Source: Armatimonadota bacterium
Lineage (GTDB): Bacteria > Armatimonadota > UBA5829
Assembly (NCBI GenBank): GCA_029907315.1
Contig: JARYME010000016.1
Coordinates: 1-41,860 of the forward strand
Reading direction: 5' to 3'
DNA: 41,860 nt
Shown here: positions 18,159 to 22,975 of the stretch, piece by piece
How positions within the stretch are numbered: the stretch's first letter is position 1
Layout of the letters: each line of letters opens with the position of its first letter
The notes under the pieces: model-generated
Told to the model about the DNA's origin: nothing
Databases searched by the model: none
What the model saw: the letters and a program-made list of their open reading frames with translations, nothing else
Made by a program: the position numbers and the translations under genes

Positions 18159-20876
18159 CTATTGCTCGATTGGAGTTACTGAGCCTGTAACAATAACTCT
18201 TTCGCCAGTTTGGGTCTGAATCGTGCCGGTGACGTCCACTGTTTTGCCTTCGCTGATGCTGCGTGCCGGTATTACGGCTATGCCCCTGAATGTGCTCTCT
18301 TCTGCGATGTAGATCCTGTCCGCAAATGCGGCAGATATAGACTTGTTTCTCAGGAAGAACGCGGTCAAGTCCGGTGTGGCTAGTGCGGAGGCAATGGTAT
18401 CGAGTTCGGGCACCGGCTGATGTTTTATTCCGTCGGAGTAGCCGGGCGCCGACGTGAGCCCTGCGCGGTTTCGAGCGCGCACGGTGAAATAATACTTCTG
18501 TCCGGGTGTCAGGTTCAGCCCCTTCACCCAAACCTCGGTTTTTGTACCGACATCGGTCAGCGGCACCACATCCGACCCATAAGGCACGGTTCCTACGCAG
18601 TATTCATATGCGCCTATGCCCGATTCAGGGTCGGTCGACGTCCAAGTGCAGTGCAGCATGGACGAATCGCCTGTATAGTCACCGTCGTCTGTAACAGTCG
18701 GGCGCACTGGCGCGCTCAGGTCGACCTTGATCCCGTCCGAAACGCCTACCTCACTCACCAACCCTGCCTTGTTGTAAGCGCGGACGTAGAAATAGTAAAC
18801 TGTGCCGTGAACCAGGGTTAACTCACAAGTTACGCTTGTGTCCAATCCACAGGCGGTCCACGGCACGACATATCCGCTCCCCGGGTCTGTCGGCGCTGTG
18901 CCTACTGCATATTCGTAGTGATCGATTCCGCTTTCCGGGTCGACCGATGACCACGAGGCTTTCAGTTTGTTGGGGGACGAGGTGTATTCGCCCTCGTCTG
19001 TTACCACTGGTTTGGACGGCGGTGTGGTATCGGGTTCGATATCCGTGCATATGACCCGCACGGCGTCGGCGAGAACGTACTTACCCGAGTCACCTTGAGA
19101 AGACAGCCTGATGGTTGCCGTTCCGGCTTCAAATTTGAAAGTGCCCAGTCTGTTCCATCTGCCACATCGCGTCTGCTGATTCACCGTGACGGTTGCAGTG
19201 CCAGACGAGTGAACTATCTCATATGTAGCTGTCGATGAGGCGTTTGTGACGGTAGGCCAACGCGCGTAAACGTCGCAGGTTCCAGACCTCGGAATCTGAA
19301 TAGTCCACACTGCTGGATCGGTGTTGCTTGTGGTTGCGCTGCGCCTGCGGTATTGCCCGTCTTTGAATGCGTCGGCTGCGGTGCGAAGGCTCCAATTGGA
19401 AGAGCACGAGAATCCAGTGTCGGAATTGTCCAAGGGCAGTTTGACTGAATATATAACAACTTTGACGCCTTCGGTCTCGCTCCATGTGACGTATCCGCCC
19501 TCGAAGTTCTGCCGTGCGCCGGAGCCGGTGGAGAATTGATCTCCCAAAGGGAACTCCAGCGCCTGGCGGTTGTCGAGCATCGCCGTTCGGAAAACACCCC
19601 AGACGCCGACACCAGTGCCATCTGCAGAGTCCACGACCACGGTTGGACCCAGCGTGCCGCCGTCGTAGTCCTGCGCAGGTCCAAAATCCCAATTATGTAC
19701 CCAAGCCGTCAGACCGTTGTCCACCGGGTTTCCCAGGGCGACATGCCCTTTGGCGTTGAAGTAGTCGAGGATAGGTTGATTCACGCTTCCGCCGGCCGAC
19801 CATCTGCCCTCGTAGGTGCATGCGGTTTTCAGGCTCTGCCACGACGGCTTCTTGTCTGCCTCGCTGAGCCCTGTATGGCGGAACACGCCGAAATAAAGGT
19901 TCGCGGCCGGTTCGTCCTTCAAAAAGAACCAGTTGACGTGCTTGATATACGATTTGTTGTTCGCCACGGCGAAAGCGGCAGTTAAGTTAGATGCCTGGAT
20001 AGCTTCGGTAGTCTTGCAGCCGGTGCCGTCGGTCTGCCAGCCGATTTCTGTCAACCAGAGCTTCTTTTTTGTGTTGGCGCCTTCGTATGTCGTGTAGGCG
20101 TTGCGGACGGTGTCGAAGTAATTTGAAAGCCAAGTTGTATTCAGCGTCGTGTTGCAGTTTGGGTAAATGTGGAACCCGATGTGATCAAGAGGGTATGTGC
20201 CCCATTTGTTCTTCATTCGAGTAAACCAGCCTGTGTGGTTGATGGAAACGTCATAAGTGCTGCGGATGTAATTGGGACCGTAAGGCGGGTCCGTTCCGCC
20301 GCACACGCCTCCGCTGATTATCTCGACAGGTATGTTGTTCGTGTGGACCAAGTCGTAGGCGTTTGCCAGCAGTGCTCCGAAATTGCTGGGATAGATGACC
20401 GCCAAGCAGTCCGGCTCATTCCATAGTTCCCAGTATTTTATCTTGCCCTTCCAGTGCGTTGCTGCGCGGAGGAAGAAGTTGCACCAATTTGAGAGATAGG
20501 TGTTCCATCCGTCGCCGCCGGTAGTTTCGTATGCGTTTTCCGTCCACTGGGCCTGCGAGCCGGGCCAGGCTTCGTTCGTCATTAGTCCGATTATCTCAAG
20601 TCCTCGGGATCGCAGTCGGTCGACGATGCCGTCATACGCTGCGTACCAGGCAGGGGTGTCGGACTGATACGGTCCCAACCGAAAGTTGACCCGCACAAAC
20701 CCTGCGCCTGTGTCCGCCAATGCTTGGGCGACTTGGTCGTTCAGGGCTACGTATCCTGTGTCGGTAAACGGCTGTCCGAACTGCGTCCCGTGGGGTCCCG
20801 CGCCGAAAGCGGCTGAACTCCACCCGGTGAGCGTCGCAATACAAACAACAGCAAAGATGCGAAAAGCAATCGACAT
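18159..20876 (-). CDS. Secreted clan-A glycosidase-like protein with golvesin and FN3 domains
   Basis: A 905-residue exported protein (signal peptide MSIAFRIFAVVCIATLTGWS, then SAAFGAG). Residues of about 30-350 form a TIM-barrel glycoside hydrolase of clan A type: YWELWNEPD carries a likely acid/base Glu154 and LWLTEIGWQTDG a likely nucleophile Glu277. A linker region follows (about 360-490). Next is a golvesin/xanthan-lyase-type domain (about 500-610; GTCDVYARWPTVTNAS, ending YVLADAVRVI), then two fibronectin-III repeats (about 620-710 and 715-805; both with DPESGI and YYF.VRA motifs). An OB-like C-terminal domain ends in ETQTGERVIVTGSVTP. The exact GH family is unresolved (GH39 or GH5-like). 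It likely cleaves an extracellular plant or microbial polysaccharide. It has its own promoter. Confidence 0.85.
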   Translation of the reverse strand: MSIAFRIFAVVCIATLTGWSSAAFGAGPHGTQFGQPFTDTGYVALNDQVAQALADTGAGFVRVNFRLGPYQSDTPAWYAAYDGIVDRLRSRGLEIIGLMTNEAWPGSQAQWTENAYETTGGDGWNTYLSNWCNFFLRAATHWKGKIKYWELWNEPDCLAVIYPSNFGALLANAYDLVHTNNIPVEIISGGVCGGTDPPYGPNYIRSTYDVSINHTGWFTRMKNKWGTYPLDHIGFHIYPNCNTTLNTTWLSNYFDTVRNAYTTYEGANTKKKLWLTEIGWQTDGTGCKTTEAIQASNLTAAFAVANNKSYIKHVNWFFLKDEPAANLYFGVFRHTGLSEADKKPSWQSLKTACTYEGRWSAGGSVNQPILDYFNAKGHVALGNPVDNGLTAWVHNWDFGPAQDYDGGTLGPTVVVDSADGTGVGVWGVFRTAMLDNRQALEFPLGDQFSTGSGARQNFEGGYVTWSETEGVKVVIYSVKLPLDNSDTGFSCSSNWSLRTAADAFKDGQYRRRSATTSNTDPAVWTIQIPRSGTCDVYARWPTVTNASSTATYEIVHSSGTATVTVNQQTRCGRWNRLGTFKFEAGTATIRLSSQGDSGKYVLADAVRVICTDIEPDTTPPSKPVVTDEGEYTSSPNKLKASWSSVDPESGIDHYEYAVGTAPTDPGSGYVVPWTACGLDTSVTCELTLVHGTVYYFYVRAYNKAGLVSEVGVSDGIKVDLSAPVRPTVTDDGDYTGDSSMLHCTWTSTDPESGIGAYEYCVGTVPYGSDVVPLTDVGTKTEVWVKGLNLTPGQKYYFTVRARNRAGLTSAPGYSDGIKHQPVPELDTIASALATPDLTAFFLRNKSISAAFADRIYIAEESTFRGIAVIPARSISEGKTVDVTGTIQTQTGERVIVTGSVTPIEQ

Positions 20877-21157: not shown

Positions 21158-21186
21158 TTGACAATGTTAGACAGGTGGCACATCAT
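21158..21186 (+). promoter_or_regulatory. Candidate promoter of the kinase/DUF2752 pair
   Basis: A perfect TTGACA is followed after 17 bases by CATCAT, which keeps only four of six -10 consensus positions. A weak or activated promoter would be expected. Confidence 0.4.
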
Positions 21187-21278: not shown

Positions 21279-22562
21279 ATGTCGGGTCAGAATATTGGAA
21301 GGTTTCAGATAATACGAGAGATCGGGCGAGGAGCAGCCGCGGTAGTGTATGAAGCACTTGACCCGCGCATTGGACGTCCGGTTGCTTTGAAGGTCTTGGC
21401 TGTAGGCGCGGGGCTAACCGGCGCTGTGCGGCGAGAGGCTATCGAGCGTTTTTACCGAGAGGCACGGTCGGCGGGCAAATTGTCGCATCCGAACGTCGCT
21501 CAGGTGTACGATGTAGGCGAGGATGCGGGCAGGCACTACATAGCAATGGAATTGTGCCACGGTGTGAGCTTGCGCGATGTGCTGCGTTTCGAGGGACGAA
21601 TCCAGGAAGCTCGGCTTAAGTTCATAGCGCTGCAGATTCTGAACGCGCTTGAGGCAGCGCATGCGGTGGGCATCGTCCATCGCGACGTTAAGCCCGAGAA
21701 CATCATTATAGGGCCCAAGGATCTGGTAAAACTTACCGACTTTGGTATTGCGAAGGCTTTGGGCGAGTCTACGATGACCCAAACCGGTGTTATGCTCGGG
21801 ACCCCTGCCTATATGTCGCCTGAGCAGGTGCTGGGTAGGAGCGTGGATGCACGCAGTGACTTGTTCTCGCTGGGCGCAGTTCTTTACGAGTGTCTTTCCG
21901 GACGAAAAGCGTTCGACGGTGAGAGCATTACGGCGGTTACACACAAAGTGGCTTATGTGGATCCGGAGCCTCTAAAGGGTGTGGCTCCACCGTGGCCCGA
22001 TATTGTGATGAAACTGCTTGCGAAGTCTCCGGCAAATCGGTATCAGTGTGCCACAGATGTGCTCTCGGACATTCGCGCCGATCGCTCGCCAGTTCAGCCT
22101 CAGCAGCAGCTGCCTTCTGCATCTCAGCAAGGTGTTCAGCCTCAGCAGGCGAGCCAGACGCTCCAGGGAGCAGGCTGTGTGATACTACCTCCGAGTGTGT
22201 CGGCTCAGCAACCGACCTCCCGTTGTCCGCGGTGCGGGTCTTATTTCAGTGGCAATTTTTTGTCGTGTCCTTACTGCGGTCAACCGCAGCGCGCCTTGCA
22301 GGTTCCGCCGCCATATCCATCCGCAAGAAATATACCGGACAACCTTGGTTGGGCTATCTTGGTAACACTTTTCTTCTGCCTGCCGCTCGGCATAGTTTCG
22401 ATTGCGAAAGCAATTGAGGCGAATGCGAAGAAGGCTTCGGGGGATTACGACGGAGCCTATGCCGCATACCATTTGTCGAGGTTTTGGATGTGGGCCAGCG
22501 TGCTTTTTGGTATCTGTGTGGGATTTTTCATGGGTATGCTGAGCGCGATCGAACAAGGATAA
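21279..22562 (+). CDS. Ser/Thr protein kinase with zinc ribbon and dispanin-like C-terminus
   Basis: A 427-residue Hanks-type kinase. The kinase domain (about 8-270) has glycine loop GRGAAAVV (16-23), VALK with Lys38, HRDVKPEN with catalytic Asp136, DFG Asp154 and GTPAYMSPEQ, so all key residues are present. A Gln/Ser/Pro linker follows, then a four-cysteine zinc ribbon (about 314-335; CPRCG and CPYCG). The end has two membrane helices (about 360-425): NLGWAILVTLFFCLPLGIVSI, the GDYDGAYAAYHLSRFWMW loop and a second hydrophobic stretch. This tail matches the CD225/dispanin (IFITM-like) pattern rather than the single helix plus PASTA repeats of usual bacterial kinases. A DUF2752 gene overlaps its 3' end. 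A membrane-tethered signalling role is inferred; substrates are unknown. Confidence 0.9.
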   Translation: MSGQNIGRFQIIREIGRGAAAVVYEALDPRIGRPVALKVLAVGAGLTGAVRREAIERFYREARSAGKLSHPNVAQVYDVGEDAGRHYIAMELCHGVSLRDVLRFEGRIQEARLKFIALQILNALEAAHAVGIVHRDVKPENIIIGPKDLVKLTDFGIAKALGESTMTQTGVMLGTPAYMSPEQVLGRSVDARSDLFSLGAVLYECLSGRKAFDGESITAVTHKVAYVDPEPLKGVAPPWPDIVMKLLAKSPANRYQCATDVLSDIRADRSPVQPQQQLPSASQQGVQPQQASQTLQGAGCVILPPSVSAQQPTSRCPRCGSYFSGNFLSCPYCGQPQRALQVPPPYPSARNIPDNLGWAILVTLFFCLPLGIVSIAKAIEANAKKASGDYDGAYAAYHLSRFWMWASVLFGICVGFFMGMLSAIEQG

Positions 22563-22975
22563 GTTCATCAGCCAGTGACCGAAGAGTCTATGCAGCGGCG
22601 ATTGTGGTGCTTGCCTTGGCATCCTCAGTGGCCATCTATGCGTTTACCCCGGGCAGAGCACGCCTCATTCCGCCGTGTCCGTTTCACGCTGCGACAGGGC
22701 TGTATTGTCCAGGGTGCGGCGCACTTCGTGCTGTCCATTGGCTTGTGCACGGGGAGTTCCGCGCAGCGTTTAGATCTAATATTTTGGCAGTTTTTGCAAT
22801 ACCTATTCCGCTTTACGATATTGTGTTTCGGTCGGCAGCTGCAGCTCTAGGAAGGGATGCGCGGCCGCTTGGTATTTCCCCGTTTGGCGGCTGGGCAATA
22901 TTAGCGATAATAGTGCTGTATTGGATATTTCGCAACGTTCCTGTATACCCATTCACTCTTCTAGCGCCCCACTGA
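22484..22975 (+). CDS. DUF2752 membrane protein
   Basis: The 163-residue frame contains the DUF2752 hallmark CPFHAATGLYCPGCGALRA (about 65-83; Cys65, 75 and 78) flanked by hydrophobic helices (AAAIVVLALASSVAIYAF before, a VFAIPIPLYDIVF segment after, and ILAIIVLYWIF at the end). The start is uncertain. ATG 22484 puts about 80 bases inside the kinase gene; the next canonical in-frame start is a GTG in the first helix, which would shorten that helix. Coupled translation from the kinase is likely. DUF2752 genes are often found beside CD225/dispanin or TM2 genes in bacteria, which supports the kinase-tail reading. Function unknown. Confidence 0.8.
   Translation: MDVGQRAFWYLCGIFHGYAERDRTRISSSASDRRVYAAAIVVLALASSVAIYAFTPGRARLIPPCPFHAATGLYCPGCGALRAVHWLVHGEFRAAFRSNILAVFAIPIPLYDIVFRSAAAALGRDARPLGISPFGGWAILAIIVLYWIFRNVPVYPFTLLAPH

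Follow-up and report, generated by a model that had tools for sequence, protein, structure and literature searches.

The window analysed here comprises all 41,860 bases of contig C77, from a MAG of 3.3 Mb, and encodes a 427 aa protein in which a Ser/Thr kinase domain is fused in frame to a zinc ribbon and a C-terminal CD225/dispanin domain (21279..22562, plus strand). The gene behind it encodes a DUF2752 protein (22559..22975, plus strand, for the part homologous to other members). Two species, both from a single Armatimonadota genus, have the complete fusion, and CD225 and DUF2752 genes are found as neighbours in four phyla. The reading proposed here, to which we give an even chance, is that a kinase was fused to an existing CD225–DUF2752 membrane couple and that the CD225 domain docks this kinase at a membrane site.

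Architecture of the fusion protein and of the adjacent gene

The kinase domain occupies residues 9–257 (21303..22049, plus strand; Pfam Pkinase PF00069, 1.6e-50). The first-pass annotation had claimed a complete catalytic set, and K38, D136 of the HRD motif and D154 of the DFG motif were indeed all found. Among solved structures, the best PDB sequence matches of the domain are PknA (1.9e-55) and PknB. The fusion resembles the PknA/PknB-type (Hanks) kinases in its complete catalytic domain; unlike them, it has no PASTA, TPR or extracellular sensor and ends in a ribbon and a CD225 domain. The NCBIfam model NF033483 (Stk1/PknB PASTA equivalog) matches residues 7–279 only (298.7 bits; cut-off 450). 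The PASTA region is absent and the score is below the cut-off; thus, the kinase lies outside this equivalog, and the earlier statement that its tail is something other than a PASTA or TPR sensor holds. A promoter-like TTGACA-N17-CATCAT sequence (21158..21186, plus strand; consensus match only) is located upstream of the kinase gene.

The kinase domain is followed by a Gln/Pro-rich linker (residues 258–309; 22050..22205, plus strand), the least conserved part of the protein, and then by a four-cysteine zinc ribbon (C316, C319, C330 and C333; 22218..22286, plus strand). The ribbon had also been claimed before. Its cysteines can be read from the sequence, and the Pfam zinc-ribbon models give sub-threshold matches only (Zn_ribbon_3, 0.0049). 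Stand-alone relatives, however, show this ribbon clearly (L153 matches Zn_Ribbon_1 at 1.9e-7), and the four cysteines are kept in the ortholog and in these relatives (alignment A1), in agreement with the claim.

The CD225 domain (residues 353–415; 22335..22523, plus strand) scores 62.2 bits with PF04505 (5e-17; curated cut-off 27.1) and is the sole CD225 domain found in a search of the whole MAG. Bacterial CD225 members have been known since 2012, and a G-D motif is located in the loop of the family (PMC3282796); in the fusion, the motif between the CD225 helices is G388-D389. The fusion is like the CD225/dispanin family (IFITM3, PRRT1/SynDIG4, PRRT2) in its profile score, G-D motif and predicted helix topology, whereas it differs in the N-terminal kinase, in the first-helix double Cys, which is F366-C367 in the window protein and C-C in the G002 ortholog, and in the loop pattern A-x(6)-A. 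The latter is a conserved CD225 pattern that profile membership does not require; it reads A393-x6-S400 in the window protein, G002 has A-x6-S, and most other members have A. Judging from these sequences, the A to S substitution in the second half of the pattern is a conservative change, and the first half is kept.

AlphaFold2 predicts three helices in the tail (356–366, 368–386 and 390–426; mean pLDDT 83, pTM 0.52, 24 sequences). Cryo-EM of native AMPA receptors resolved the CD225 protein SynDIG4/PRRT1 with a short re-entrant H1a–H1b pair and a single transmembrane H2, and it binds other membrane subunits (PMC13262616). The tail as modelled, a helix–kink–helix and then a long helix, matches this topology. 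Alignment A1 retrieves the PRRT1 chain at 3.7e-19; a fold search of the PDB with the tail model gave nothing at E < 1, and a comparison of the tail with plasmid records gave no match. The profile score, the kinked helices of the model and the PRRT1 match support the proposal that the tail is a CD225 domain and not a generic two-helix segment.

The next gene had been assigned to DUF2752, correctly: its product scores 69.8 bits with PF10825 (2.1e-19; cut-off 27), contains the C...TG..CPGCG motif and is predicted with high confidence by AlphaFold2 (pLDDT 91) to be a small membrane protein made of helices. No significant relative was found in the PDB by sequence or by fold, so the fold yields no functional clue. 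The overlap of about 80 bases with the kinase gene is less certain than had been described. The longest ORF opens at TTG 22484 and overlaps the kinase gene by 79 bases, and an alternative GTG start at 22490, with GAGG eight bases upstream, gives an overlap of 73 bases. However, in relatives the DUF2752 start coincides with the stop of the preceding gene, as ATGA (L006, L007) or TGATG (L002). The window reads ATA at this place (22559–22561), and therefore the start of its DUF2752 gene is either the upstream GTG or TTG or an unusual one.

Orthologs, kinase relatives and gene neighbourhood

The same fusion is encoded whole by G002, a second MAG from a second species (L010/L006), with 71% identity over residues 1–427. 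In G001 (L011), a third species of the same genus whose genome includes contig JAOAGX010000095.1, the sequence ends inside the kinase at a contig end. The identity of the window protein to the G002 ortholog falls from 87% in the kinase to 55% in the CD225 domain, 48% in the ribbon and 34% in the linker (residues 266–309); the corresponding dN/dS values are 0.077/1.29, 0.35/1.23, 0.47/2.03 and 0.69/2.09, and the ratios are rough because dS is close to saturation in this comparison. The DUF2752 protein is 54% identical to its G002 counterpart (dN/dS 0.34/0.92). In these two species, dN is below dS throughout, which indicates purifying selection on all domains of the fusion. The window comes from a MAG in 186 contigs, and an assembly artefact or a frameshift could be thought of; this explanation has practically no probability left and was rejected, since the independent ortholog shares the architecture, down to the junction and the DUF2752 gene that follows. 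The whole G002 ortholog, together with dN < dS in each domain, rules out a merger in assembly.

On the phylogenetic tree of kinases, the window protein groups with G002 (support 100) and then with the G019 kinase (support 80). The latter (L162) is the closest related kinase outside the fusion; it is 60% identical and has no ribbon but a DUF4190-like hairpin tail with a sub-threshold score (5.3e-7; 29.7 bits, cut-off 35). The tail of the L163 kinase consists of ribbons and two helices. Tails have thus been exchanged within this kinase lineage. Kinases from FHA clusters carry a single helix plus a TPR-like tail and lie apart from the fusion kinase in the tree. One of them, encoded by the window genome near FHA genes (G000:C34, L093), is a paralog whose kinase domain is 50% identical to that of the fusion; it differs in its single transmembrane helix and TPR-like tail and has neither CD225 nor DUF2752. 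A conserved Armatimonadota membrane-FHA cluster with a one-helix, TPR-tailed kinase can be noted in G002:C12 (L145, 5381–13116) and in G000:C34.

In the window, the kinase gene has a divergent secreted-protein gene on one side (18159–20876, minus strand) and cinA, a LigT-like gene and recA, recognised from its translation, on the other. The secreted protein has Golvesin_C, fibronectin type III and LGFP matches. In the sister species, FHA and aldo/keto reductase genes are located upstream of the kinase. The FHA gene encodes a membrane protein with FHA domains (1.1e-38, 1.3e-36) and is directly upstream of the kinase gene in G001 and one gene away in G002. Its ortholog in the window species (58%) lies in contig C134 with the same upstream neighbours and without the kinase. 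In the window, the kinase and DUF2752 genes are next to each other and away from the FHA-side neighbours of G002, so this pair was kept together through a rearrangement that separated it from the FHA gene.

CD225–DUF2752 pairs in four phyla

CD225 genes were surveyed in about 1,380 whole genomes of Armatimonadota, Planctomycetota, Chloroflexota and Acidobacteriota. The survey covered these four phyla, whereas the group in which CD225 was commonest as of 2012 was Actinomycetota (PMC3282796). In large genomes, scoring was restricted to a limited number of candidates and may have overlooked some CD225 genes. CD225 is present in at least 26 of the 291 Armatimonadota, 11 of the 343 Planctomycetota, 3 of the 350 Chloroflexota and 19 of the 396 Acidobacteriota genomes. 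Matches above the cut-off were found in 23, 9, 2 and 16 genomes, respectively (50 in total). The recurrence of the fusion across genera, considered by the first-pass annotation, is not borne out: among these genomes, with limited candidates per large genome, no kinase–CD225 ORF was found outside the window genus. Two long CD225 matches were rejected, as L105 (Planctomycetota, 383 aa, weak match) is a DUF4190 protein with RING and L214 (Acidobacteriota, 485 aa) has no kinase.

The neighbourhood of CD225 and DUF2752, on the other hand, recurs as had been claimed. Of the 50 genomes whose CD225 is over the cut-off, 30 have a DUF2752 gene, called with a profile built in this analysis (E < 1e-15), within 1.5 kb of it: 12/23 in Armatimonadota, 5/9 in Planctomycetota, 2/2 in Chloroflexota and 11/16 in Acidobacteriota. 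One of these pairs is on opposite strands, and four Acidobacteriota pairs are about 0.6 kb apart. DUF2752 occurs about once per genome (28 matches in 41 relatives); given this frequency, chance adjacency would, by our own estimate, be of the order of one in a thousand.

Stand-alone CD225 proteins carry a further domain. A zinc ribbon precedes CD225 in L002, L003, L053, L101, L110, L201 and others, and a GYF_2-like domain was found in L044–L050 (weak Pfam match, 0.0074, in L050). The stand-alone ribbon–CD225 and DUF2752 pairs of L002, L003, L101, L110 and L201 share with the fusion the ribbon, CD225, gene order and DUF2752 subclade, and differ in having no kinase domain in front. The older unit is the stand-alone zinc-ribbon–CD225 gene with DUF2752 beside it. 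In one further locus, L136 (G005:C190, 4944–11268), a 297 aa CD225 protein is encoded in a prokaryotic ubiquitin-like cluster, where its gene is preceded, on the strand that it shares with them, by YukD-like, ThiF, JAB and Prok-RING_1 genes.

On the DUF2752 tree, the CD225-linked copies of the four phyla, including that of the window, form their own clade (SH-aLRT 94), and the unlinked copies are separate from it. At L004 (G022:C99), one CD225 gene is flanked by two DUF2752 genes of different clades, of which the second, upstream of the CD225 gene, groups with the unlinked copies. In genus g3, DUF2752 is coupled to ribbon–CD225 in G004 and, in its place, to zinc-ribbon–RDD in the sisters G008 and G011 (L141, 8077–9224; L142, 8296–9452), whose DUF2752 falls within the CD225-linked clade. 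Not every CD225 gene has a DUF2752 nearby, and DUF2752 also occurs with ribbon–RDD or without either partner.

Proposed mechanism and alternative readings

We propose that a PknA/PknB-like kinase gene was joined in frame ahead of a ribbon–CD225 gene already paired with DUF2752. The CD225 domain, as a re-entrant pair and one transmembrane helix, would anchor the protein in the cytoplasmic membrane at its inner side; by analogy with SynDIG4, the kinase and the ribbon would be cytoplasmic, and the ribbon may serve as a protein-contact module. CD225 would bind a membrane partner, most likely the co-encoded DUF2752 protein, and through this docking the kinase would work at the site marked by the CD225–DUF2752 couple. 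Localisation would then be the purpose of the CD225 tail. The FHA membrane protein of the sister species is a likely candidate for the reader or substrate of the phosphothreonines made by the kinase, although the FHA gene is not adjacent to the kinase in the window species. In favour of docking are the domain architecture, the ortholog with dN < dS in every domain, the recurrent gene pairing in four phyla, the CD225-linked DUF2752 clade, the SynDIG4-like predicted helices and the joint relocation of the kinase and DUF2752 genes. The pTM of the tail model and the outcome of its PDB fold search count against the docking model, as do the CD225 genes that lack a nearby DUF2752 and the DUF2752 genes found with ribbon–RDD or with neither partner, and the CD225–DUF2752 adjacency could mean co-expression only.

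The main rival to docking is an exchangeable anchor. CD225 would then be a generic hairpin anchor or dimerisation helix for which any small hairpin suffices, and DUF2752 would be a hitch-hiker of operon history; we hold this to be possible, though rather unlikely. The DUF4190-like hairpin of the closest kinase, the tail of L163 and the swap of ribbon–CD225 for ribbon–RDD beside DUF2752 in genus g3 speak for such exchangeability. However, the CD225 domain, with a dN/dS ratio of about 0.28, has retained the motifs of its family and has not drifted into an arbitrary hydrophobic stretch, and DUF2752 is still with the kinase after relocation and remains within the CD225-linked clade. In addition, the 17 kb surrounding the G019 kinase with the DUF4190-like tail yielded no DUF2752 match, and the sole DUF2752 of that genome is about 126 kb away.

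It is also conceivable, but improbable, that the CD225 tail senses or alters the membrane state (curvature, stiffness, lipid order) and thereby switches the kinase. The kinase here is directly tethered to a membrane domain, and CD225 proteins of animals have a role in membrane fusion (PMC11730294). In contrast, the lipid-binding amphipathic helix is a feature of IFITM3 and not one established for the window protein, SynDIG4 works by binding other membrane proteins, with the receptor visibly unchanged (PMC13262616), and bacterial CD225 is mostly paired with ribbons or GYF-like domains, not with enzymes. A PD-T4-6-like anti-phage defence kinase with CD225 as a membrane anchor is very unlikely. 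Many PADLOC PD-T4-6 models match the protein (2.1e-87), but essentially in the kinase domain only, as expected for any PknB-like kinase, and this identity was rejected; neither the genes downstream of the kinase in the window nor those upstream in the sister species are defence genes.

Kinases, ribbons, CD225 and DUF2752 are each already known, and the CD225–DUF2752 couple is the more general point. In the searched literature, no report of a kinase–CD225 fusion and no mention of DUF2752 were found, nor anything relevant on DUF4190 with a kinase or on Armatimonadetes FHA with a kinase. We suggest, only tentatively, that CD225–DUF2752 might be a general bacterial membrane docking couple of at least four phyla that carries varied modules (ribbon, GYF-like, kinase), that the kinase fusion might reveal a signalling platform, and that SynDIG4 and IFITM3 might inherit the partner-docking role.

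Animal CD225 proteins restrict viruses and bind neuronal receptors, and to our knowledge there is no settled role for bacterial dispanins. The linkage in four phyla supplies bacterial CD225 with a concrete candidate partner, DUF2752, and in the kinase fusion, phosphorylation is an output that can be measured to probe what the couple does. This gives a route to asking what role CD225 had before it reached animals.
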